Positions 5,021-61,290 of a stretch of 64,000 nt of DNA are shown here, in pieces. The stretch spans positions 31,545-95,544 of the forward strand of contig JAHRFE010000008.1 of assembly GCA_019084245.1 (NCBI GenBank). The letters are read 5' to 3'. The first letter of the stretch is position 1, and every line of letters begins with the position of its first letter. Position numbers and translations under genes: made by a program. Origin of the DNA: Hoeflea sp. Lineage in GTDB: Bacteria; Pseudomonadota; Alphaproteobacteria; Rhizobiales; Rhizobiaceae. The notes under the pieces were generated by a model. That model made no database searches and had not been told where the DNA came from. It was given only the letters and a program-made list of their open reading frames with translations.

Positions 5021-5905
5021 ATGACAATGACGCGAAAAATCAGAAAAGCCGTTCTTCCGGTCGCAGGCCTGGGCACACGGTTCCTGCCCGCCACCAAGGC
5101 GGTGCCCAAAGAAATGCTGACCGTGGTCGACAAGCCGGTTGTTCAGTATGTGGTCGAGGAAGCCATGGCTGCCGGCATCGAGCATTTTGTTTTCGTCACC
5201 GGACGCAACAAGACGGTTATTGAAGATCATTTCGACATTCAGGTCGAACTTGAGGCGACGTTGCGCGAACGCGGCAAGACGGTCGAATTGAAATCGCTCG
5301 AAGACATGTTGCCAAAGGCAGGCGCCACCAGTTTCACACGTCAGCAGGCGCCGCTTGGCCTGGGCCACGCGGTCTGGTGCGCCCGCGATATTGTCGGCGA
5401 CGAGCCCTTTGCGCTTCTGCTCCCCGATATGGTGATGCGCGACAAGGTTGGGTGCCTCTCCGGAATGGTCGAGCTTTACAACAAGGTTGGCGGCAACATC
5501 GTCGCGGTGTCTGAATGCGATCCCGAACTGGCCCACAAATACGGCATTGTTGGCAAGGGCGAGGAACTCGACGGCGGCTTCCGGATCACCGGAATGGTCG
5601 AAAAGCCGGCGAAGGGAACCGCACCTTCGAATTTCTATATCAATGGCCGCTATATCCTGCAGCCAAAGATCTTCGAGATCCTGTCAAAACAGGAGCGCGG
5701 AGCCGGCAACGAGATCCAGGTTACGGATGCAATGCTCAAGCTCGCCGATGAACAACCGTTTTCCGCCTATGCTTTCGGCGGTCAGACCTATGATTGCGGG
5801 TCCAAGGAAGGGTTCATTCTGGCCAATGTGGCCTTCGCGCTCGATCGGGAAGACATCAAGCCGCTGGTGGCGGACGGTCTTCGACACCTGATAGCCGGCG
5901 CCTGA
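5021..5905 (+). CDS. galU: UTP--glucose-1-phosphate uridylyltransferase
   Basis: A 294-residue nucleotidyltransferase making UDP-glucose for exopolysaccharide, LPS core and cyclic glucans. The N-terminal nucleotide-binding signature is complete ([20 protein letters not shown]), followed by [13 protein letters not shown], the sugar-binding VEKP motif ([14 protein letters not shown]) and GRYIL. Length is typical. The start is the ATG preceded by GAGGAAAATAC; a second in-frame ATG lies two codons later. The downstream genes are on the opposite strand, so it appears monocistronic. Confidence 0.96.
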
Positions 5906-5973: not shown

Positions 5974-7560
5974 TCACCGCCTCAGCCTGAGGCCCAGTCC
6001 AACGCGGGTTGTTTCTTCATCGGTGACGCCAGGCTCTTTGGTTCGCGTGTAACTCGCATCAGCTTCAAGGTCTAGATAGCGGTTTATGTTCCACGTCAGG
6101 CCGGTGGACACGCCATAGCTCTGCTGGTTTCTGCGGCCGCTGCGGGCATCGTAATCCCTAAGGCCAGCAGATGCGCCAAGGCGCGCCACCACGGCGCTGT
6201 GGATTTGCTGTGTCAGGGAAGTGTCAAATTCATAGACGACCGAGCCCGATTCGCCTGCCGTCGTTGCTGATTCCAGGGTGGTGGACAAGCCAGCCATGAC
6301 ATCGGTTCCGCGCCTTGGCGACCAGTTGATTTCGCCATCGAGCGTCAAGCCGGACAGATTGCTCAATTTGCTGTCATCAATGGATCGCAGCACGTAACCG
6401 GCTCCAAGCTCGCCCGAGAGCTTTTCGCCGAAATTGAATTCCGCGCCGCCGCGCGCGCCATAGGTCGTCGATGAGCGTTCCGCGCCTGTGTTATCGATGC
6501 GTTGATCATATTTCTCGCGGCCGACCGAGGCCTCCAGAAATGGAATCAATGCAGGCGATACAACATAGCCGATGCGCGCCGTGAGTTCAGCACCCAGAGT
6601 GTCACGGTCATCGACCAGAATGCTGCCGCCGGTCGCCGACGTTGCATTGCCATAGATTCTGCGGGTCACTTCAAGTGACGTTGTTCCGCGCAAAACACCG
6701 AGGTCCTTCTGCAGGCCGATGCTTGCGCGCAATTCGTGAATACCAGATTGCGTGGTGGCGCCGGCGATGGCGTTGGGGTCTGTGCGGCTTTCCTGGGAAT
6801 AGCTATATCCGGCGCCAACGATGCCGGTCATGTCATTGAGGAGATCGAGGTTCAGCCGGACGTCGAGATTGGCGCTTGGAGACTCGGTGCCGGTGCCCGA
6901 GAGGTTTTTCTGATATGTCGCGGACCCTTCGACCGAGAGCTGATGACGTGACCAATCGGATTGCAGCGTTCCTGACAATGTCGTTTCGCTGTAGATCCGG
7001 CTGGTTTTCGATGCGCCGTAATTGATCGATTCGTGAACGACCCGCTGAGCCAGGGTTGGCCGCAAAGTCAGCGATCCCAACATGAATCCCGGCACGGCGG
7101 TATCATCAGCTCCGCTATTGATTGACAAATCATCCACGGTTCCGACGCGATCATTCTGGCGCGCCAGACTTGCGGCAAAGTCTCGGTCGGCTTGGGTGAG
7201 ATCCGAATTGGCGCCAATGGTCCCGGTTTGAATTTGCGTATCAGTCTCGACTGGATCTGCGGAAAACTGCGACTGGCCTGCACTATTGGCGGCACCGGTT
7301 CGGGATGATGTTGCAGAGTTTTCGCGGCTTGCTGGTAGCGCTCCATAAAGGGTCGAGGCTGCAGTGGATCGTGTGGACGCGGAACCAGTGGTCGTGCCGC
7401 GCAAGCCGTAGGTCTCTGTGGCGGCCGCATCAGGGCCGCTTGCTGATTGCGCTTGCGCCCCGGACATCAGCGCGAGCAGGCATGCCATAGAGGTGCAGGC
7501 TCGCAGGCCCGCGCGGTGCGCGGCCCTATCAGTCAGTGCCGTGGTGTCTCGTTTGCGCAT
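5974..7560 (-). CDS. Outer-membrane beta-barrel protein, BBP2-like porin
   Basis: A 528-residue protein with a cleavable signal (hydrophobic SMACLLALMSGAQA ending near residue 37), a Ser/Thr/Ala-rich periplasmic or disordered segment to about 170, and a long region of alternating aromatic/polar strands with Gly turns to the C-terminus. Strand-like repeats such as VVHESINYGASKTSRIY and LSVEGSATYQKN are typical of the putative beta-barrel porin 2 family. The last strand ends RVGLGLRLRR, lacking a terminal aromatic. It lies convergent with galU and divergent from the sugar isomerase, so a polysaccharide-related role is possible but unproven. Confidence 0.7.
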   Translation of the reverse strand: MRKRDTTALTDRAAHRAGLRACTSMACLLALMSGAQAQSASGPDAAATETYGLRGTTTGSASTRSTAASTLYGALPASRENSATSSRTGAANSAGQSQFSADPVETDTQIQTGTIGANSDLTQADRDFAASLARQNDRVGTVDDLSINSGADDTAVPGFMLGSLTLRPTLAQRVVHESINYGASKTSRIYSETTLSGTLQSDWSRHQLSVEGSATYQKNLSGTGTESPSANLDVRLNLDLLNDMTGIVGAGYSYSQESRTDPNAIAGATTQSGIHELRASIGLQKDLGVLRGTTSLEVTRRIYGNATSATGGSILVDDRDTLGAELTARIGYVVSPALIPFLEASVGREKYDQRIDNTGAERSSTTYGARGGAEFNFGEKLSGELGAGYVLRSIDDSKLSNLSGLTLDGEINWSPRRGTDVMAGLSTTLESATTAGESGSVVYEFDTSLTQQIHSAVVARLGASAGLRDYDARSGRRNQQSYGVSTGLTWNINRYLDLEADASYTRTKEPGVTDEETTRVGLGLRLRR

Positions 7561-7653
7561 GCGCTTTCGGCTCCGGAGCCATCCAAATCTTTTTAAACCG
7601 TAAACACTTGTGGTTAACGCAAGGTTTCGATCCGTCTCGTTGACTTATTGGTT

Positions 7654-8694
7654 ATGTCCTTAATGGACACGGAAGCTGCAACGCGATATTCCGGCGCCAT
7701 GAAGAAGATCCTGCCAGGCTACCCAGCTGATGAAATCCTGCTTTCCGCGAAGCGGACGATCCTCACCGAAAGGAGCGGGCTCGACGCCGTCGCTGCCGCC
7801 CTTGAGAACGGGCTCGCGGAGCCTTTCGTGCGCGCTGTCGAAGCGCTCGGCAGCATATCGGGTCGGGTGATCGTCACCGGAGTTGGCAAGAGCGGTCATA
7901 TAGGCGCGAAAATCGCAGCGACCCTGGCTTCAACTGGCACTCCGTCGCATTTCGTGCATCCCGCCGAGGCAAACCATGGCGATCTCGGAATGATCGCGCA
8001 CGATGATGCAATCATTGTGTTGTCCTGGTCAGGCGAAAGCGCAGAGCTGAAAGGCATCCTGGCCTATTCGCGTCGGTTCCAGATTCCGTTGGTTGCCTTT
8101 ACCGCTGGCGCCCAATCGACGCTGGCGCGCGAAGCCGACATCGTCATGCTGTTGCCGCGAGAGCAGGAGGCGTGTCCGCATGGCCTGGCGCCGACCACAT
8201 CCACGCTGATGCAACTGGCGCTCGGCGATGCGCTGGCCGTGGCGCTGCTTGAAGCCAAGGGGTTCACCGCGGGAGACTTTCACGCTTTCCACCCAGGGGG
8301 GCAGTTGGGTGCCAACCTGGCGCATGTGGCGGATGTCATGCACACGGGCGAGTCGGTGCCGCTGGTGCCATCAGGCACGCCTGCACCGGAAGCCATCATG
8401 ACGCTCTCACAGCGAAAATTCGGCTGTGTCGGAGTTACAGGCCCCGGTGGACGGCTGATCGGCATTGTCACCGATGGCGACGTGGCGCGGAACCTGGGCA
8501 GGAATTTGATTGATCAGCCGATCGACGCCATCATGACCAGCCAACCCAAGACCATCGCGCCAACGGCGCTTGCCAGCACGGCGATGGCCATATTGAACAA
8601 GAACGCGATTGGTGCGCTGATCGTCACCGATCAGGATCTTCTTCCGGTCGGCATCGTGCATTTCCATGATCTGCTCAGGATTGGCGTCGCCTGA
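7654..8694 (+). CDS. kdsD: Arabinose-5-phosphate isomerase, KdsD/KpsF family
   Basis: Interconverts ribulose-5-phosphate and arabinose-5-phosphate, the first step to Kdo for LPS. The protein has an SIS domain (about residues 40-175; GVGKSGHIGAKIAATLASTG and HPAEANHGDLG) and two C-terminal CBS repeats (about 215-345, with GIVTDGDVARNL and GALIVTDQDLLPVGIVH). Start choice is open: TTG at 7648, ATG at 7654, 7663 and 7699, none with a clear Shine-Dalgarno; the SIS domain is complete from all of them. It is divergent from the porin-like gene. Confidence 0.9.
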   Translation: MSLMDTEAATRYSGAMKKILPGYPADEILLSAKRTILTERSGLDAVAAALENGLAEPFVRAVEALGSISGRVIVTGVGKSGHIGAKIAATLASTGTPSHFVHPAEANHGDLGMIAHDDAIIVLSWSGESAELKGILAYSRRFQIPLVAFTAGAQSTLAREADIVMLLPREQEACPHGLAPTTSTLMQLALGDALAVALLEAKGFTAGDFHAFHPGGQLGANLAHVADVMHTGESVPLVPSGTPAPEAIMTLSQRKFGCVGVTGPGGRLIGIVTDGDVARNLGRNLIDQPIDAIMTSQPKTIAPTALASTAMAILNKNAIGALIVTDQDLLPVGIVHFHDLLRIGVA

Positions 8695-8715
8695 GACACT
8701 TTCCCGGTCGGCAGG

Positions 8716-9174
8716 TCAGGCGGCGGGCTCCACCGTCAGGCACCCAGCTTGGGCCGTGGTGATCCGTACGCGGGCGCCAACGGGCATGTCCGGGCCTTGC
8801 ACGATCCAGGTGGTATCGTCGAGCCTGATCCATCCCTTGCCCTCGCGGATCGGTTCCTCCAGCGTTGCGGTCCGGCCCACAAGGCCTTCGATGCGGCGGT
8901 TGAGCATGGGTTGATCGGTGTCCGCGTTGGATCTCGAGATCCGACGTCCGACAAGGGCAAGCGCCACGGCGAGTACCGCGAACACCAGCATCTGCGTTTG
9001 CCAACTCCAGAGGTCAGCTCCCCACAGAAGGAATGAGATGGCGCCGACGACCATCGCTGCCAGACCGATCCAAAGCAGAAAAACCCCTGGGACAACGATC
9101 TCAAGCCCCAGGAAAATCAGGCCGACGATCCACCAGCTCCAAGGTCCGAGTTCGGTTGCCAGCGCGGCAATCAT
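8716..9174 (-). CDS. NfeD family membrane protein
   Basis: A 152-residue NfeD-type protein. The N-terminal half has two or three hydrophobic helices (about 15-75: [20 protein letters not shown] and following). The C-terminal half is the OB-fold NfeD domain with the conserved [10 protein letters not shown] and WIVQG segments. It overlaps the SPFH gene by four bases (ATGA), the usual arrangement in which NfeD works with a stomatin/SPFH partner in membrane microdomains. Length corresponds to the short NfeD1b class, without the ClpP-like protease domain. Confidence 0.92.
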
Positions 9175-10196
9175 GCGTCCGGTTCCGTAGTCGTGGGGGC
9201 GGAATAGCCCGGCGTTGTGGCGCGCGTTGAGCGCACCGGCTGGCTGGCTGCACGAACCGGGTCTGATGCCGGCGGATTGCCGTCCTTGCCGAAGACCTCG
9301 CGGGCAATTGCACCAATGCCGCCCAGCGTCCCGATCAAGGCAGAAGCCTCAAGCGGCATCAGGATGACTTTCTGGTTCTTTGCCGATGCAATCTGACCCA
9401 GAGCCTCGGTGTATTTCTGTGCGACAAAGTAATTGATCGCGGCAGGATCGCCTTCCGAGATGGCAATCGACATCATTTGCGTGGCCTTGGCTTCAGCCTC
9501 GGCGAGCCGTTCGCGCGCCTCGGCGTCGCGGAAGGCGGCATCCCTGCGGCCCTCCGCCTCCAGGATCGCTGATTGCTTGGCGCCTTCAGCGCGCAGGATC
9601 TGGGCATTGCGGAAGCCTTCGGCCTCGAGCACCTCGGCGCGCTTCTCGCGCTCGGCCTTCATCTGCCGGCCCATCGACTGGACCAGATCCACCGGGGGAG
9701 CAATATCCTTGATCTCGACGCGCGTGATCTTGATGCCCCAAGGAGCGGCAGCCTGGTCGACGACGCGCAGCAGGCGGTCATTGATGGCATCGCGATTGGA
9801 CAGGAGCTCATCCAGATCCATCGACCCCATGACCGAGCGGATGTTGGTCATAGTCAGATTGAGCAGCGCCTGTTCAAGATCAGAAACCTGGTAGGCAGCC
9901 TCGGCGGCGTTGAGGACCTGGTAGAATGAAACGGCGTCGGCGGAAACGGAGGCATTGTCGCGGGTGATGACCTCCTGGGTGGGGATGTCGAGCACCTGTT
10001 CCATGATGTTTATCTTGCGGCCAACACGGTCGACAAAGGGGACGATGATGTTCAACCCCGGCGAGAGCGTCCGTGTGTAGCGTCCAAATCGCTCAACTGT
10101 GTAGGCATAGCCCTGCGGCACGGTCTTGATCCCGGAAAACAGAAGCAGGATCGCGATGACGACGACGACTATGACCGTGATATCCAGTCCAACCAT
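9171..10196 (-). CDS. SPFH/Band 7 stomatin-like protein, QmcA type
   Basis: A 341-residue SPFH protein. An N-terminal membrane segment (about 4-22) precedes the Band 7 domain (about 25-185; [19 protein letters not shown] and [20 protein letters not shown]). An Ala/Glu-rich coiled-coil region follows (about 185-240; [14 protein letters not shown] and [14 protein letters not shown]), then a stomatin C-terminal segment ([14 protein letters not shown]) and a Pro/Thr-rich tail. It is the first gene of a two-gene operon with NfeD. Such pairs organise membrane microdomains and interact with membrane proteases; the local role is inferred from the family. Confidence 0.93.
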
Positions 10197-56098: not shown

Positions 56099-56461
56099 AT
56101 GGCGCAAGTCACCGTCACCATCGACAGCAAGACCTACCGGATGGCTTGCGAAGAGGGTCAGGAAGAGCATTTGAGCGAGCTTGCCAGCCGCTTTGACCGC
56201 TATGTCGGCCATCTCAAGGATCAGTTTGGCGAAATTGGCGATTTGCGCATCACGGTGATGGCCGGGATCATGGTGATGGACGAACTGCACGAATTGCAAA
56301 GGCGGATGCGCGGCCTTGAGGCGGAAGTGGAAACCTTGAAGAAAACTCGCGATACGGTGCTGAGCAAAGCCGACAAGACTGACCAGGAGGTATCCGCGGC
56401 GCTGATCCAGGTGACCGGCAAGATCGAACAGATTGCGGACAAGCTGGCTGGGCGGGCCTAG
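56099..56461 (+). CDS. zapA: Cell division protein ZapA
   Basis: A 120-residue ZapA. It shows VTIDSKTYRMACEEGQEEHL and LASRFDRYVGHLKDQFGEIG, then DLRITVMAGIMVMDELHELQ and a C-terminal coiled coil. ZapA crosslinks FtsZ filaments. The usual neighbours behind zapA in alphaproteobacteria, 6S RNA and formyl-THF cyclo-ligase, are not adjacent here; the regulator gene of the Slam cassette ends 31 bases downstream. Confidence 0.94.
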   Translation: MAQVTVTIDSKTYRMACEEGQEEHLSELASRFDRYVGHLKDQFGEIGDLRITVMAGIMVMDELHELQRRMRGLEAEVETLKKTRDTVLSKADKTDQEVSAALIQVTGKIEQIADKLAGRA

Positions 56462-56492: not shown

Positions 56493-58283
56493 TCAGGACG
56501 CGGTCGCCGCAGCCATCTCCGACAGGGCGGCGATAATCTTGTCAGGTGCTGCGTGCAGGAGATGCTGACCAATGCCCTGGACCTCCTGATGCCGGGAATT
56601 GGCGATCCGGGTTGCGGCAAGCCTTGCCAGGCGCGGGTTTACCGCCGGATCTGACTCGCCATGCAGAACAGTCACCGGCAAATCAAGCCTGGAAAGCAGG
56701 CCACTCCAATCCGAATTGCTGGATGAGGTGTCGGAGAGAAATGCGGAGGCTCCCCCGCCGGTCACGTGCCTGATGCCGGCTCGCAATATCCCGTAGATTT
56801 CCTTGTCGCGGATTGCCTCGCTGTCGGCGGCGCTGTGTTCAGCCAGGGCGGAAAGGTAACGATGCGATCCGCCATAGCGCAGATAGGCCACCGCAGTCAG
56901 GGCGATGAATTGATGCGCCGCTGCCGACGCGATGCCGCTCGACATAGCGAGCTTCTGCAGCACCCCGACCGGGACGAGGTGATCAGCCAGCTGGAGCGGG
57001 AAATAGGCCGAGCACAGCACCAGTCCGCTCACCCGCTCCGGATAGGTCAGGCAGAATTCCATTGCGGCATGGGCGCCGAACAGATGACCCAGCACGATCA
57101 CGCGGTCAGCGCCCGAGAGGTCACACACGGCCCGTGCATCCTCGATGCTTGTCTGCATGACGGACGTGTCGGGGGGCTGCTTGTCCGTGCCGCCGTAACC
57201 GGGCTTTGAGGCGCCGATCAGCTCAAAGCCCGAGCGTGCAAGGTCCTGGCGCAAGCCAAGAGTGAGTTCAGGGCTTTGCAGCAGCCCGTGGAACATCAGG
57301 ACCGTTCGGCGGCTGGCGGTGATGGAGGCTGCAGCAGGGTAATGGACATAGCTGATGCGCCGCCCGCCTCTTTCGGTCCTCCTCCAGACCGACGGGTCAT
57401 GGGCGAAGGGAAAACCGTGTGCTTCCGGAACGTTCGCGGCGATCAATTCTCCCGGGCCGCCGGACAGGGCAGCCAGGCTGACAAGATCGTTGACGACCTG
57501 GACGGCTTCCAGGCGGGAGGTGACGCCGAGCTTGCGGAAGATCGCCTGGGTCTGGCTTTTCACCGTATCGACGGAGCGAAAGCGTTCTCTTGATATTTCG
57601 ACATTCGATCTGCCTTTGGCCATGAGCTCGAGGACTTCGACTTCCGATGGGGACAGACCGAGGCTTTCGCTCAGGATTGCCGGGATTGCCCGGTTCTGGC
57701 TTGCGACCGGAAAGGTGACAACAACGACATCAAGCAGATCGTCGCGGAGCAAGGAAACAAACCCGTTTTCATGCTCGGTCCGCACGAAGCTGCGATTGAT
57801 GAGCTCTCCTTGCCCTTCCTGACTGAACAGGGCTGCCACGTTTGCAAGCACCGCGCTGGTCAGGCTTGATTGCAATCGTTCGATCTGGGCGGGCGAATAG
57901 GTCGTGGTGCCGGTGGAGATCACGGTTTTGTTGTGCCGGTCCAGAGTGACGGCAAAACCGTCAATATAGCCGAAAATCTTGCGCGCCTCTTGTGATTGCG
58001 CCACGATCCGGAATGCCCTGTCGATCACGACCTTCAGGGCCGGACCTTCTACCAGCGCGCGGTATTTGGCTTCCGGTGCAGGGGACATCACCTGAGCCAG
58101 TTCCGCGGCAATATGGAAATGCCTGCCGATCTCTCCGGTGAAGACCGGCTGCCCGGTTTCGCCCACGGCCAGAAAGTCTTCGAGATCCTTCATGAACTCG
58201 GTGAATTCCTGGTCGCCCTTGAAATAGGAGTAGATCGCTTCGATCGCCTGGGTCAGCGGTGCCGGATCTCTGACAGTATTCAT
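56493..58283 (-). CDS. LuxR-type regulator fused to an alpha/beta-hydrolase domain without the nucleophile Ser
   Basis: A 596-residue protein. Residues 1-200 form an N-terminal, possibly sensory, domain with no motif I can name. A LuxR helix-turn-helix covers about 207-266 (LGLSPSEVEVLELMAKGRSN, then the adjacent RSVDTVKSQTQAIFRKLGVTS). An alpha/beta-hydrolase fold fills 305-596: oxyanion HGLLQS near 332, elbow VLGHLFGAHAAM near 398-408, acid HGESDP with D545, and His in GQHLLHA near 574-577. The elbow's nucleophile is Leu401, not Ser, so the hydrolase is probably a ligand-binding pseudoenzyme. It lies 135 bases downstream of the Slam gene on the same strand and is likely its regulator. The start at 58283 follows GAAATGTATTCTCTCC. 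Confidence 0.82.
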   Translation of the reverse strand: MNTVRDPAPLTQAIEAIYSYFKGDQEFTEFMKDLEDFLAVGETGQPVFTGEIGRHFHIAAELAQVMSPAPEAKYRALVEGPALKVVIDRAFRIVAQSQEARKIFGYIDGFAVTLDRHNKTVISTGTTTYSPAQIERLQSSLTSAVLANVAALFSQEGQGELINRSFVRTEHENGFVSLLRDDLLDVVVVTFPVASQNRAIPAILSESLGLSPSEVEVLELMAKGRSNVEISRERFRSVDTVKSQTQAIFRKLGVTSRLEAVQVVNDLVSLAALSGGPGELIAANVPEAHGFPFAHDPSVWRRTERGGRRISYVHYPAAASITASRRTVLMFHGLLQSPELTLGLRQDLARSGFELIGASKPGYGGTDKQPPDTSVMQTSIEDARAVCDLSGADRVIVLGHLFGAHAAMEFCLTYPERVSGLVLCSAYFPLQLADHLVPVGVLQKLAMSSGIASAAAHQFIALTAVAYLRYGGSHRYLSALAEHSAADSEAIRDKEIYGILRAGIRHVTGGGASAFLSDTSSSNSDWSGLLSRLDLPVTVLHGESDPAVNPRLARLAATRIANSRHQEVQGIGQHLLHAAPDKIIAALSEMAAATAS

Positions 58284-58342
58284 GGAGAGAATACATTTCC
58301 CTGCGCTTCGATAATGACCCGATCTTACATGAGGGGGGTGTG

Positions 58343-58361
58343 TCCACAAGAGTACAGTGGA
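58343..58361. promoter_or_regulatory. Imperfect dyad upstream of the LuxR-hydrolase gene
   Basis: TCCAC, nine bases, GTGGA, with partial extension on both sides (T-G/T-A). It lies in the 135-base gap between the Slam gene and the LuxR-hydrolase gene, 60-78 bases upstream of the latter's start. A LuxR-type site for autoregulation is possible. Confidence 0.3.
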
Positions 58362-58418
58362 TAATTCCGGCACTGAGCGCAAAATAATCGGTGCACCACA
58401 AGGATGGGCAGACCAAAC

Positions 58419-59792
58419 TCAGAAAGCCTTGGTGAAGGTCAGGTCCATTCCGCTGGATTCATAGTCATAAAACGCGATATTGCTGTGCTGCCTTTTGTGG
58501 AAAACGCCGATGATCGGGGAAAAACCTGCGATCTGGAAATTGTCCTTGGTGAAACTTCCCCTGACTTCCCAGAACTGGTCGCGCCGCGCGAGCCGCAAGC
58601 CGGGAAACAGGTCCTTGTAATCTCGTGTCCCGGCGGTGACGGCCACCTTGACCCGGATGCCATAGGCGATTGGCGTTTCGAGCCCGATTGTGCCCGACGA
58701 GCTTTCATAGGAATTCCAGGGCCTGGCCGACACGCTTTCCTTCTCGAAACTCCCGCCCGCGGACATTGCCAGGCGTTTTGAAAATGCATGCCGGACGGAT
58801 GCCGTCGCCCGGGTCGTGCTGGCGTCGGCGCCGGGGTTTCCATCGAAAGTCCGGTACATCTGGATGATCTCTCCTGAGAGCCACCAGCCCTGGGCGACAT
58901 TCCATTTTCCCGATACGCGGCCGCCGAACCCCCGGCTCTGGGCTTTCTGGTTGTGCCAGTGCCGGTCGGCGATGGCTTCGACCTGCAGGGAATAGCGCAG
59001 CTGGTCATGCCTCACTCCGGCCCGCAGCTCGCCCTGCTGCTTGTCGAACTGGTCATTGGAATAATCCGAAAAACCCGCCGACAGCGAGGCATAGACCGAC
59101 GTGTTCTCAGACAGCGAATACGAGTACCCGGCCACGACCCCGGCCCTGACGCCGATGCCCGAGTGTTCGCGCGCGCTGTTGGCGATCACGAAGGGCAGGC
59201 CGCCGATCATCACCGTGGATTGCGAGGTGCCGTCATTGATGTTCGTGGATGGCGCGAGCGAGAAATAGCCCGACAGCGAAAAGCCTTCGGTGGTTCCGAT
59301 GCGGCGGGAGAGTTGCGCCAGCTGGTCCTGGTCGCGGGCCAGATCGGCGGTGTCGGTCAGCCGGTTGAGATGGTAGCCCGCGCCCTGCCGCTTTCCCTGA
59401 AGCGCCAGGATCTTGATCAGTTCGATGCGGACTGCATCGATATCGGGTTCACGCGACAGGATTTCGCGCAAGAGTTTTTCGGCCTCATCGAAGCGATTGG
59501 TCCGGGCATAGACGACGGCCAGAAGATAGGCGGCCGGGATCGCCTCGGCGCCCTGAAACCGGGTGCTCTGCAGCACGACTTCGGCTTCGGCATAATTGCC
59601 GCTCGAGACAAATGCCTCGGCCGACTGGAAGGCGGTCTGCGGCTGGGCTGAGGTATCACCGGGAAACAGCAGCAGAAGAACCGCCACGCAAATGCCTGCC
59701 AGCGGTCCCCTGTCGCTTGATCGCGGTCGTTTTCCAACCGCAGGCTGCCGATTTCCCATTTCCGAAGAAAACGCGGGACAAGGATGCGGCAT
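58419..59792 (-). CDS. Slam-type surface lipoprotein assembly modulator (type XI secretion translocon)
   Basis: A 457-residue outer-membrane protein. After a long n-region and signal (about 1-49), TPR-like repeats cover about 53-160. A beta-barrel region runs from about 172 to the end. The barrel starts GYFSLAPSTNINDGTSQST, close to the aPDSNIN-type segment of Slam proteins, and ends SGMDLTFTKAF with the terminal aromatic. Slam proteins move specific lipoproteins to the cell surface. The start is three bases after the stop of the lipoprotein gene, so the two are co-translated; a start at 59759 is also possible. The partner is the TbpB-like lipoprotein upstream. Confidence 0.88.
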   Translation of the reverse strand: MPHPCPAFSSEMGNRQPAVGKRPRSSDRGPLAGICVAVLLLLFPGDTSAQPQTAFQSAEAFVSSGNYAEAEVVLQSTRFQGAEAIPAAYLLAVVYARTNRFDEAEKLLREILSREPDIDAVRIELIKILALQGKRQGAGYHLNRLTDTADLARDQDQLAQLSRRIGTTEGFSLSGYFSLAPSTNINDGTSQSTVMIGGLPFVIANSAREHSGIGVRAGVVAGYSYSLSENTSVYASLSAGFSDYSNDQFDKQQGELRAGVRHDQLRYSLQVEAIADRHWHNQKAQSRGFGGRVSGKWNVAQGWWLSGEIIQMYRTFDGNPGADASTTRATASVRHAFSKRLAMSAGGSFEKESVSARPWNSYESSSGTIGLETPIAYGIRVKVAVTAGTRDYKDLFPGLRLARRDQFWEVRGSFTKDNFQIAGFSPIIGVFHKRQHSNIAFYDYESSGMDLTFTKAF

Positions 59793-59795
59793 CGC

Positions 59796-60863
59796 TTATT
59801 TTTTCACTGCGCCGATGGTGCCGGACATGATGTAATCGCGGTTCTGGCCATCGAGCATTGCGTTGCCTTCGATCACATAGGCCGCGGCGGTTTCGGCCGC
59901 GCCGTCACCGAAGAAGGCGCCGATGGCTTCGTTGGTCTGGGTGGTTCCCACCGCATTGTTGTTGGCGTCCACCAGATGGGCGGTTCCGGTGTATTCCGAG
60001 CCGGTGATGTTGGCGTCGATATAGAGCCCGGTCACCGCGTTGTTGAGGACGACGGGCAGCATGTTCCGGTAGGTCGTGAGTTCTCCGTCCTTGATGCCGC
60101 CCTTCACCGTGCCGGCACCGAAATCGGCGGTCAGCTCAACCGTTCCACCGGTCAAGTACATCTCTTCCATCGTCCCGCTGTTGTCGAAGACCGAGGTTCC
60201 GCTTTCGTTGAACCCCTTGTAGGTGGCCTGTCCGGAGCCGGGCATGGTGGTGGTGTTGTTGCCGATATAGCCGACCGCGTAAGTGGCGGTCCCGGCGCCG
60301 TCGGCGCCTTCGCGATAGCGGATTGTCGTGCCATGCCTCATGACAATCTGTTCGACGAAATTGTTGTTGTCATAGACATTGTAGACAGAGACTGAGGACA
60401 GACTTGTGCTTTCATCGGAAGCGTTCACATCGCCAAAATTGCCGCCATCGAAGTAGACATCTCCCTTGACGTCCGTCATTCCCGCAATTTGTGTTCCGTT
60501 TTGAAGCGTGTCGGGAGAACTCGCGGTCACCAAGGCCGGATTCATAAAATTGTTAACCGCCGGATTGGGGTCCTTGTCGACGGATCCTTCAATGCGGATG
60601 CCGCCCGGAGCTGATTTTTCAAGGATGCTGGCCTGCGTGATCTCGTGTCGGGAGAAAGGCAGGTTTGTAAAGGAACTGACTTCCGAGCTATTGGTTGAAT
60701 TGGCGCGGAAGGCGAGGGCCCTGCCGGATGCCATGATGGGCAGGGTTCCTGCCGCGACCGCAGGGCCTCCAGCCGCAGCGCCGCCTGCCGTCGGGCTGCA
60801 ACCTGTGATGACTGGGAGAGCCACAAGGACGATTGCTCCGGAAACGAATGTCTTTCTGATCAT
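59796..60863 (-). CDS. TbpB-like surface lipoprotein, likely Slam substrate
   Basis: A 355-residue lipoprotein with a lipobox ITGC (Cys22). An Ala/Gly linker and an N-terminal domain follow. The C-terminal half is a transferrin-binding-protein-like eight-stranded barrel (about 200-350): ATYAVGYIGNN, GSGQATYKGFN, TGGTVELTADFGAGTVKGGI, EYTGTAHLVDANNN and GAFFGDGAAETAAAY. The start at 60863 has AAGGGGG about 6-12 bases upstream. It heads the three-gene cassette, with Slam next. Ligand is unknown; iron, haem or another nutrient is possible, but there is no TonB receptor nearby. Confidence 0.87.
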   Translation of the reverse strand: MIRKTFVSGAIVLVALPVITGCSPTAGGAAAGGPAVAAGTLPIMASGRALAFRANSTNSSEVSSFTNLPFSRHEITQASILEKSAPGGIRIEGSVDKDPNPAVNNFMNPALVTASSPDTLQNGTQIAGMTDVKGDVYFDGGNFGDVNASDESTSLSSVSVYNVYDNNNFVEQIVMRHGTTIRYREGADGAGTATYAVGYIGNNTTTMPGSGQATYKGFNESGTSVFDNSGTMEEMYLTGGTVELTADFGAGTVKGGIKDGELTTYRNMLPVVLNNAVTGLYIDANITGSEYTGTAHLVDANNNAVGTTQTNEAIGAFFGDGAAETAAAYVIEGNAMLDGQNRDYIMSGTIGAVKK

Positions 60864-61068
60864 GCTGCACCCCCTTGCCCGGAGAAACTCAACGCCAGAC
60901 CACTTCACACAGGTGATCAGGACCCCGGGCGGGATCGTGACGGCCTTACGCACCGCAAATCTTGAAGATATGCTCGGCTGGAAGCGATATTTACGGAACG
61001 GGTTCCCGATCCGCATATTATGAGTATCGGCGGGATAGGGGCGTCTCAATCACCTGAACGGGTGAAAA

Positions 61069-61123: not shown

Positions 61124-61290
61124 GGCGATCTGCGCCTCTCGACAGGATACACAATCCCTGGGGCCTTAATTGATCCAAAGGGAGCTGTCCCTGACCGGAC
61201 CCGTGGGTCCGGACATATGGCGCCCACCTACGTTGTAGGTTCCCAGGATCAATAAATCCATCGGTTGCCGTGGATCGCACTTCCCTCAGA
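61124..61290 (+). ncRNA. ssrS: Structured RNA candidate, possibly 6S RNA
   Basis: From the promoter at 61090-61118 the plus strand contains a cluster of perfect hairpins: AGGGA-GCTG-TCCCT, CGGACCC-GT-GGGTCCG and ACCTAC-GTT-GTAGGT, enclosed by ATTGATCC/GGATCAAT, then ATCCA...TGGAT. There is no convincing reading frame. In alphaproteobacteria 6S RNA lies directly behind zapA, and here zapA is 4.7 kb away with the Slam cassette between. The CGCCCACCTAC...GTAGGTTC stretch resembles what I remember of rhizobial 6S RNAs, but I cannot confirm that. Ends are approximate. Confidence 0.4.

Follow-up and report, generated by a model that had tools for sequence, protein, structure and literature searches.

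Slam, or type XI secretion system (T11SS), loci with TbpB-like cargo, such as those of Neisseria and Xenorhabdus and those of two surveys (PMC8406197, PMC12282271), combine a TPR-bearing barrel with a cargo gene directly upstream, and the cargo carries a lipobox and a C-terminal barrel. The same arrangement is found on the minus strand of a 64,000-nucleotide stretch of Hoeflea sp. DNA (the window), where three open reading frames (ORFs) at 56493-60863 fill the space from zapA to the 6S RNA gene ssrS and encode, in transcript order, a TbpB-like lipoprotein, a Slam/T11SS translocon, and a LuxR-type regulator with an alpha/beta-hydrolase domain. Unlike those known loci, the Hoeflea locus has no TonB receptor seen beside it and is followed by this regulator. 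On balance, we favour the reading that the locus is a dispensable Slam module, in which the regulator, whose hydrolase domain is very probably dead, activates the lipoprotein-Slam pair through a palindromic site and co-regulates an Omp19-like lipoprotein gene elsewhere in the genome.

Closer relatives by lineage are the marine "cluster 3" T11SS loci of Rhodobacterales, which in the passages of PMC12282271 considered here are likewise alphaproteobacterial and marine, have in part a lipoprotein beside the T11SS gene, and co-occur with DUF1194, GloA and thymidylate synthase genes, whereas none of these three was seen among the genes annotated at the Hoeflea locus. Three Rhodobacterales plasmid loci share with it a GerE-type regulator at most about 3.1 kb from Slam, but those regulators are of two-component types and the Hoeflea regulator is a one-protein fusion. 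Of transcription factors, the survey passages name DicA and a cold shock protein, and the words LuxR and regulator are absent from both main texts. A literature search returned no paper joining DUF560 with LuxR, a single one, on Serratia, joining T11SS with LuxR, and none for Hoeflea with "surface lipoprotein".

By its profile matches, the pair is a Slam substrate with its translocon, a locus of known kind. The lipoprotein (355 residues, 59796-60863) has a signal peptide and a lipobox ending at Cys22 (codon 60800-60798), a residue invariant in all 14 aligned sequences, and its C-terminal barrel (about residues 212-354) matches TbpB_B_D (PF01298, residues 207-352, E 3e-10; 41.1 bits, where 26 is the cut-off). 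Foldseek places TbpB, NHBA, HpuA, hemophilin and LbpB, known as Slam/T11SS cargo from other bacteria, among the best solved folds for its AlphaFold model (14 sequences; predicted local distance difference test, pLDDT, 81; predicted template modelling score, pTM, 0.81), and TbpB and LbpB rank first in a profile search of solved chains. The cut-off of the NCBIfam model slam_lipo (NF041636) is not reached (30.1 bits against 80), and the protein is classed here as a TbpB_B_D-type cargo and not as an equivalog of that family. Its stop is separated by 3 bases from the ATG of the Slam gene (58419-59792), whose 457-residue product joins an N-terminal TPR domain (TPR_19, E 1.6e-10, 41.6 bits against 25) to a SlipAM barrel (PF04575, DUF560; residues 173-457, E 9e-21, 75.1 bits against 22), and is the sole SlipAM match of the genome; the dedicated TPR_Slam model matches it below cut-off (22.3 against 35.2 bits). 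As an outer-membrane barrel with a periplasmic TPR domain, Slam would bring the adjacent TbpB/HpuA/hemophilin-like lipoprotein to the cell surface, an export that homology and fold make probable. An earlier sequence-only reading of this DNA had named the three minus-strand genes in this order, with a substrate-Slam pair, a translocon starting 3 bases after the lipoprotein and no adjacent TonB receptor, and the present results agree with it on each point: all three ORFs are real, their domains match by Pfam, the SlipAM and TbpB_B_D models match above their cut-offs, the translocon matching Slam models as that reading had predicted, and no TonB receptor lies among the nearest genes, which are the only genes annotated.

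The third gene encodes a regulator of 596 residues (56493-58283), which likely starts at the ATG at 58283 and not at a TTG at 58382, since its orthologues begin there. Like LuxR-family regulators, it contains a GerE helix-turn-helix (HTH) above the Pfam cut-off (PF00196, E 4.7e-12, 45.8 bits against 23.5), but unlike the usual members of that family, in which the HTH is expected at the C-terminus, it carries the HTH in mid-protein (about residues 204-263 of 596), with N-terminal helices and a PAS-like fold (about 83-191) before it and a pseudo-alpha/beta-hydrolase domain (about 300-595; Abhydrolase_1, PF00561, E 8.2e-18) after it. The PAS-like fold was read by eye from the strand order in the AlphaFold model (17 sequences; pLDDT 75, pTM 0.60), whose best Foldseek matches are alpha/beta hydrolases. 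Two of the three residues that an active enzyme of this fold has (nucleophile, acid and histidine) are replaced: the motif GxSxG or GHDWG has become GHLFG, with Leu401 (codon 57081-57083) aligned to the nucleophile of the haloalkane dehalogenase 8ckp, and Gln573 (codon 56565-56567) stands at the histidine place in the alignment to GxGH of the solved chain; Asp545 of the triad is kept in the alignment with solved hydrolases. At the nucleophile place all 15 sequences first compared, and later all 17 rows, the window's own included, have L, M or Q, and at the histidine place Q is found in 8/8 orthologues, and Q, N or G in the 17 rows when read by eye. With Leu401 and Gln573 at these places, the "hydrolase" of the earlier reading is very probably not a working enzyme, and because the nucleophile is missing in all 15 sequences first compared, the domain is probably a sensor, which together with the PAS-like domain would most likely act as the ligand-sensing part of the protein. 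Ligand receptors made from dead alpha/beta hydrolases exist, such as the plant gibberellin receptor GID1; GID1-type receptors and the Hoeflea domain have in common a hydrolase fold without a working catalytic triad, and unlike GID1 the Hoeflea pseudo-hydrolase is fused to a DNA-binding domain. The regulator had no plasmid match at E 1e-30.

Given the start at 58283, the gap after the Slam stop measures 135 bases (58284-58418), and 104-136 bases separate these two genes in all six trios found. It contains, by eye, a promoter-like CTTGTG (58350-58345)-N17-TAAGAT (58327-58322) on the minus strand, and the form CTTGTG/CTTGAG-N17-TAAGAT/TAAAAT was recognised by eye in 4/5 Hoeflea trios (genomes G000, G298, G046 and G299, not G258). 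Also by eye, the stretches before the regulator in G116, which has the trio, and in G013, which has only the regulator, are similar up to the Slam stop. With a gap of this length and a promoter-like element in it, the regulator need not share the transcript of the pair, is probably transcribed from its own promoter, and is not "embedded", as had been proposed.

The candidate operator is the palindrome TCACCTGAACGGGTGA (61050-61065, assigned to neither strand), the only exact copy of TCACCY-N4-RGGTGA in the genome. On the minus strand it is directly abutted by TTGAGA (61049-61044) and followed after 21 nucleotides (nt) by a -10-like GATACT (61023-61028), a spacing that varies by no more than 1 nt in six of seven Hoeflea pair promoters; by binding this site, whose centre lies about 42 nt upstream of the transcription start, the regulator would probably activate the lipoprotein-Slam promoter. 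The exact pattern was present in 20 of 38 tested stretches, each covering the 400 bases before a lipoprotein start (a count that is not an unbiased test, because the palindrome search had led to some of the regions), against 1 in 11400 dinucleotide-preserving shuffled regions; six of the 38 starts, those of five Omp19-like genes and the G255 lipoprotein, were placed a few bases off the codon. The palindrome precedes 8/8 Hoeflea and Pseudohoeflea-like pairs, at -186 to -203 from the lipoprotein start, 3/3 pairs of the genus g25, at about -150, both second Slam pairs (G116, G244), one further TbpB-type lipoprotein gene of G024, and 6/12 Omp19-like genes. The regions of the Hoeflea and Pseudohoeflea-like pairs, of the g25 pairs and of 12 other Slam lipoproteins were chosen by Slam and not by the palindrome. 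Between the end of the palindrome and a TACT -10 element (TACC in G303) lie 23-24 nt in six of seven Hoeflea pair promoters, and the distance to TACT is 25 nt in seven of eight Hoeflea Omp19-like promoters; this near-fixed distance puts the centre of the palindrome near -42, where activators in contact with RNA polymerase usually bind.

The same kind of site would let the regulator co-regulate an unlinked second lipoprotein gene, called Inh/Omp19-like here after sub-threshold Inh matches (E 0.0009 to 0.013). The Omp19-like gene and a member of the regulator family are both present in nine and both absent in nine of 18 Hoeflea genomes (Fisher p 4e-5, kinship ignored), two of the genomes with neither being 75-77% complete, and the family member and lipoprotein of G301 being distant. 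In five of these genomes (G000, G258, G306, G308, G303) a paralogous regulator lies convergent beside the Omp19-like gene, and in G109, of another genus, the paralogue stands beside an Omp19-like gene recognised by eye, with the exact palindrome there. Within the window's own genome (L080, C16:135000-152000), the paralogous LuxR/pseudo-hydrolase regulator, about 21% identical, occupies 7547-9346 and is convergent with an Omp19-like gene at about 9449-10159.

The trio recurs but is a separable, dispensable module, not a fixed unit. It occupies the zapA-6S interval in five of the 18 Hoeflea genomes (G000, G258, G046, G298, G299), the lipoprotein-Slam pair stands there without the regulator in two (G306, G303), and none of the three genes is present in the other 11, where the interval measures 52-211 bases. 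The cultured species H. olei is among the carriers of the trio. One of four Pseudohoeflea-like genomes has the trio and three have the regulator alone, and zapA and the regulator of Zhengella are about 4 kb apart; the genomes with the regulator and without the pair number four (G013, G244, G186, G021). The pair of g25 (three genomes) lies in other surroundings, where the regulator is missing and a histidine kinase with a NarL-type response regulator comes next. Since the gene order recurs in 5/18 Hoeflea and in one genome of a neighbouring genus, the trio is more than chance; by orthology it is found in six genomes, and once, in divergent form, in another genus, so the three-gene locus of the earlier reading is no accident of one genome, though the regulator alone in four genomes and the pair alone in two Hoeflea and three g25 genomes speak against a fixed locus. 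The favoured reading places a small module at this zapA-ssrS site in some, not all, Hoeflea and Pseudohoeflea-like species. On a tree of TKT, YmdB, ZapA and DUF4164 (23 rows), the trio genomes are scattered, and close relatives differ in trio content (G000/G308, G046/G309, G298/G307, G299 and the pair G302, G139, and G258/G303). The identities of other Slam proteins to that of the window (90, 80, 73, 67, 66, 65 and 55%) and the gene trees, which are partly weakly supported, do not contradict descent with repeated loss, and there may also have been gains by transfer.

A number of observations weigh against activation of the pair by this particular regulator. In a family-wide search of 80 Rhizobiaceae genomes, WTCACCY-N4-RGGTGA was present in 57, including many without the regulator family, usually in a few copies per genome, and the reversed control pattern gave a single match in all 80. 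The palindrome also stands before the pair in G306 and G303, whose genomes have the paralogue but not this regulator, and it precedes the g25 pairs, where a histidine kinase and NarL-type regulator follow Slam and where two of three genomes have no regulator homologue at E 1e-25. Conversely, it is absent from the locus in two regulator-only genomes (G013, G186) and from the 400 bases upstream of all 12 other Slam-linked lipoprotein genes. The spacing to the -10 element is unclear for the G299, G116 and g25 pairs, for the second Slam pairs, and for four Omp19-like genes (G298, G116, G013, G109). Where the paralogue accompanies the Omp19-like gene, in five Hoeflea genomes, the site keeps its place but has drifted away from the exact pattern. 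The matched presence of the Omp19-like gene and the regulator family amounts to four independent contrasts agreeing (sign test p 0.125), and the changes of pair and of regulator agree in direction in three to five of six independent contrasts and are never opposed, although contiguous genes can vanish in one deletion without any functional linkage. A palindrome specific to this regulator, one candidate view, is weakened by its presence in 57/80 genomes, also without the regulator family; more than one regulator probably uses operators of this class. Because g25 has the palindrome with other regulators, and many of the 57 genomes lack the family, we are surer of the predicted operator role than of which protein binds there.

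In G023 and G058 a LuxR-type gene has the palindrome just upstream, and in G300 the two lie side by side. Among 20 sites picked by eye (L258-L277), seven have a GerE-type gene at most 2.1 kb away; at 29 listed sites with flanks of about 1.5 kb (L229-L257) the count is one, a doubtful 108-residue ORF of G303, so adjacency of palindrome and LuxR genes is not general. At L262 (G255, C4), position 5534, the 17-mer of the g25 pairs, ATCACCTGAACAGGTGA, stands just upstream of an operon of a histidine kinase and a GerE-type regulator; the 804-residue gene across from it matches nothing in Pfam, and the site was not searched for Slam. The second Slam of G116 and G244 (L058, L057) is 24-26% identical to that of the window and has its own lipoprotein gene, whose product has no Pfam match at E 0.01, and at 8446-9896 of L046 (G125) the Slam gene is split over two frames, so that the pair looks broken.

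It is possible, though we give it clearly less weight, that the pair is real and the LuxR/hydrolase gene an unrelated neighbour that settled at the zapA-6S site, the palindrome belonging to another regulator. The separate occurrence of regulator and pair described above, the wide distribution of the palindrome in the family, and the promoter-like gap before the regulator all fit such a view. What speaks against it, besides the agreement in presence of the Omp19-like gene and the regulator family in 18/18 Hoeflea, is the company that Slam genes keep. In 30 Rhizobiaceae Slam loci (505 kb; contig-end loci and weak Slam matches left out), a GerE profile built from this regulator family and the g25 regulator (E <1e-4; seven of the matches were in the training set) found a GerE-type ORF in 19, one each and all within 3.2 kb of Slam, one of them the doubtful ORF of G303, against 1 match in 136 kb of empty zapA loci, a comparison uncorrected for relatedness. 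Six of these loci have the present LuxR/pseudo-hydrolase fusion. NarL-type response regulators are found in G249, G024, G125, G248 and G286 (Pfam GerE confirmed in G024, G248 and G286), and single-protein types in G299, with Pfam GerE above cut-off, and by the GerE profile only in G035, G281, G090, G255 and G116, for which Pfam gives GerE below cut-off, weak HTH or Sigma70_r4 matches, or nothing; since several depend on the profile, the Pfam-certain regulators are fewer than 19. A divergent version of the trio in G061 also argues against an unrelated neighbour: a LuxR/hydrolase fusion lies convergent to Slam at 22 bases, with a lipoprotein gene before Slam. This fusion, about 21% identical to the paralogue, is a hydrolase by Pfam and a GerE protein by the profile alone (E 3.2e-6), and has by eye Asn at the nucleophile place. 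The idea that a LuxR gene beside Slam is unique to this genome was rejected on the same 19/30 loci, and of the regulator that the sequence-only reading found unusual only the fusion form is so, because LuxR/GerE-type genes are common near Slam in Rhizobiaceae.

The company extends to plasmids, of which 10 of 20 Slam-matching records were examined. A GerE-type gene lies at most about 3.1 kb from Slam in five of the ten loci, and in three of five Rhodobacterales loci: NarL-type response regulators with Pfam GerE occur in Shinella, Sagittula, Ponticoccus and Sulfitobacter S1704, and Nitratireductor has, by the GerE profile only, a single-protein type 48 bases beyond Slam. In Qingshengfaniella the regulator is OmpR-type, not GerE-type, and there was no GerE match in flanks of 3.5 kb in the loci of Sulfitobacter SK025, two Novosphingobium and Erwinia. 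None of the ten plasmid Slam stretches contains the palindrome. In four Rhodobacterales plasmids (L288, L289, L290, L281), Slam comes after a gene that encodes a short Gly-rich lipoprotein-like or hypothetical protein, and runs divergently from genes for a histidine kinase and a response regulator, the latter of GerE type in three and of OmpR type in Qingshengfaniella.

An unlikely alternative keeps the regulator on the palindrome but makes it a repressor, with the palindrome abutting or overlapping the -35 element and the lipoprotein off until a ligand is present. In line with repression, TTGA comes right after the palindrome, and 15-17 nt separate a -35-like hexamer from the -10 element; the centre near -42, on the other hand, is an activator-like place, and no computed result decides between activation and repression. 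That the palindrome serves the divergent 6S RNA promoter and not the lipoprotein is highly improbable: it does lie some 60 nt ahead of the 6S RNA start, and of the genomes without the three genes G308 retains it and G304 has it with a base changed, but at the 6S genes of the remaining nine empty Hoeflea it is, by eye, absent or degenerate, and it precedes lipoprotein genes in 12 loci without a match to a 6S profile built here.

The interval is bordered on the left by zapA (56099-56461, plus strand; PF05164, E 5.3e-21) and on the right by the 6S RNA gene (61124-61280, plus strand; Rfam RF00013, 83.2 bits, E 6.3e-15), which is transcribed away from the trio. A conserved ORF upstream of the lipoprotein was rejected as a gene, the stretch being the 6S RNA by Rfam, and a 6S RNA was also found by Rfam at the corresponding place in 6/7 related loci searched. 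Directly upstream of the lipoprotein and divergent from it, ssrS is followed by a chemotaxis receptor gene, and the contig ends soon after; G306 and G308 have the order 6S, chemotaxis gene, fau, and of the features searched for, fau comes next in most other Hoeflea.

Under the favoured reading of a Slam module activated by its LuxR/pseudo-hydrolase regulator, the type XI secretion locus itself is of known kind, and the new part is the regulator, its dead hydrolase domain and the palindrome. More tentatively, these regulators might form a one-protein sensor family of PAS domain, LuxR HTH and dead hydrolase, in which a small molecule would occupy the old active site and a shared palindromic operator would switch on surface lipoproteins, Slam cargo and Omp19-like proteins among them, the fusions having joined Slam loci at least twice. 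The regulation of T11SS loci and the signals for surface lipoproteins are not treated in the survey passages considered here (PMC12282271, PMC8406197). A candidate regulator family, a 16-bp palindrome with near-fixed spacing and a proposed lipoprotein regulon make this regulation testable in a cultured marine species, and the dead hydrolase domain is a starting point for finding the ligand.

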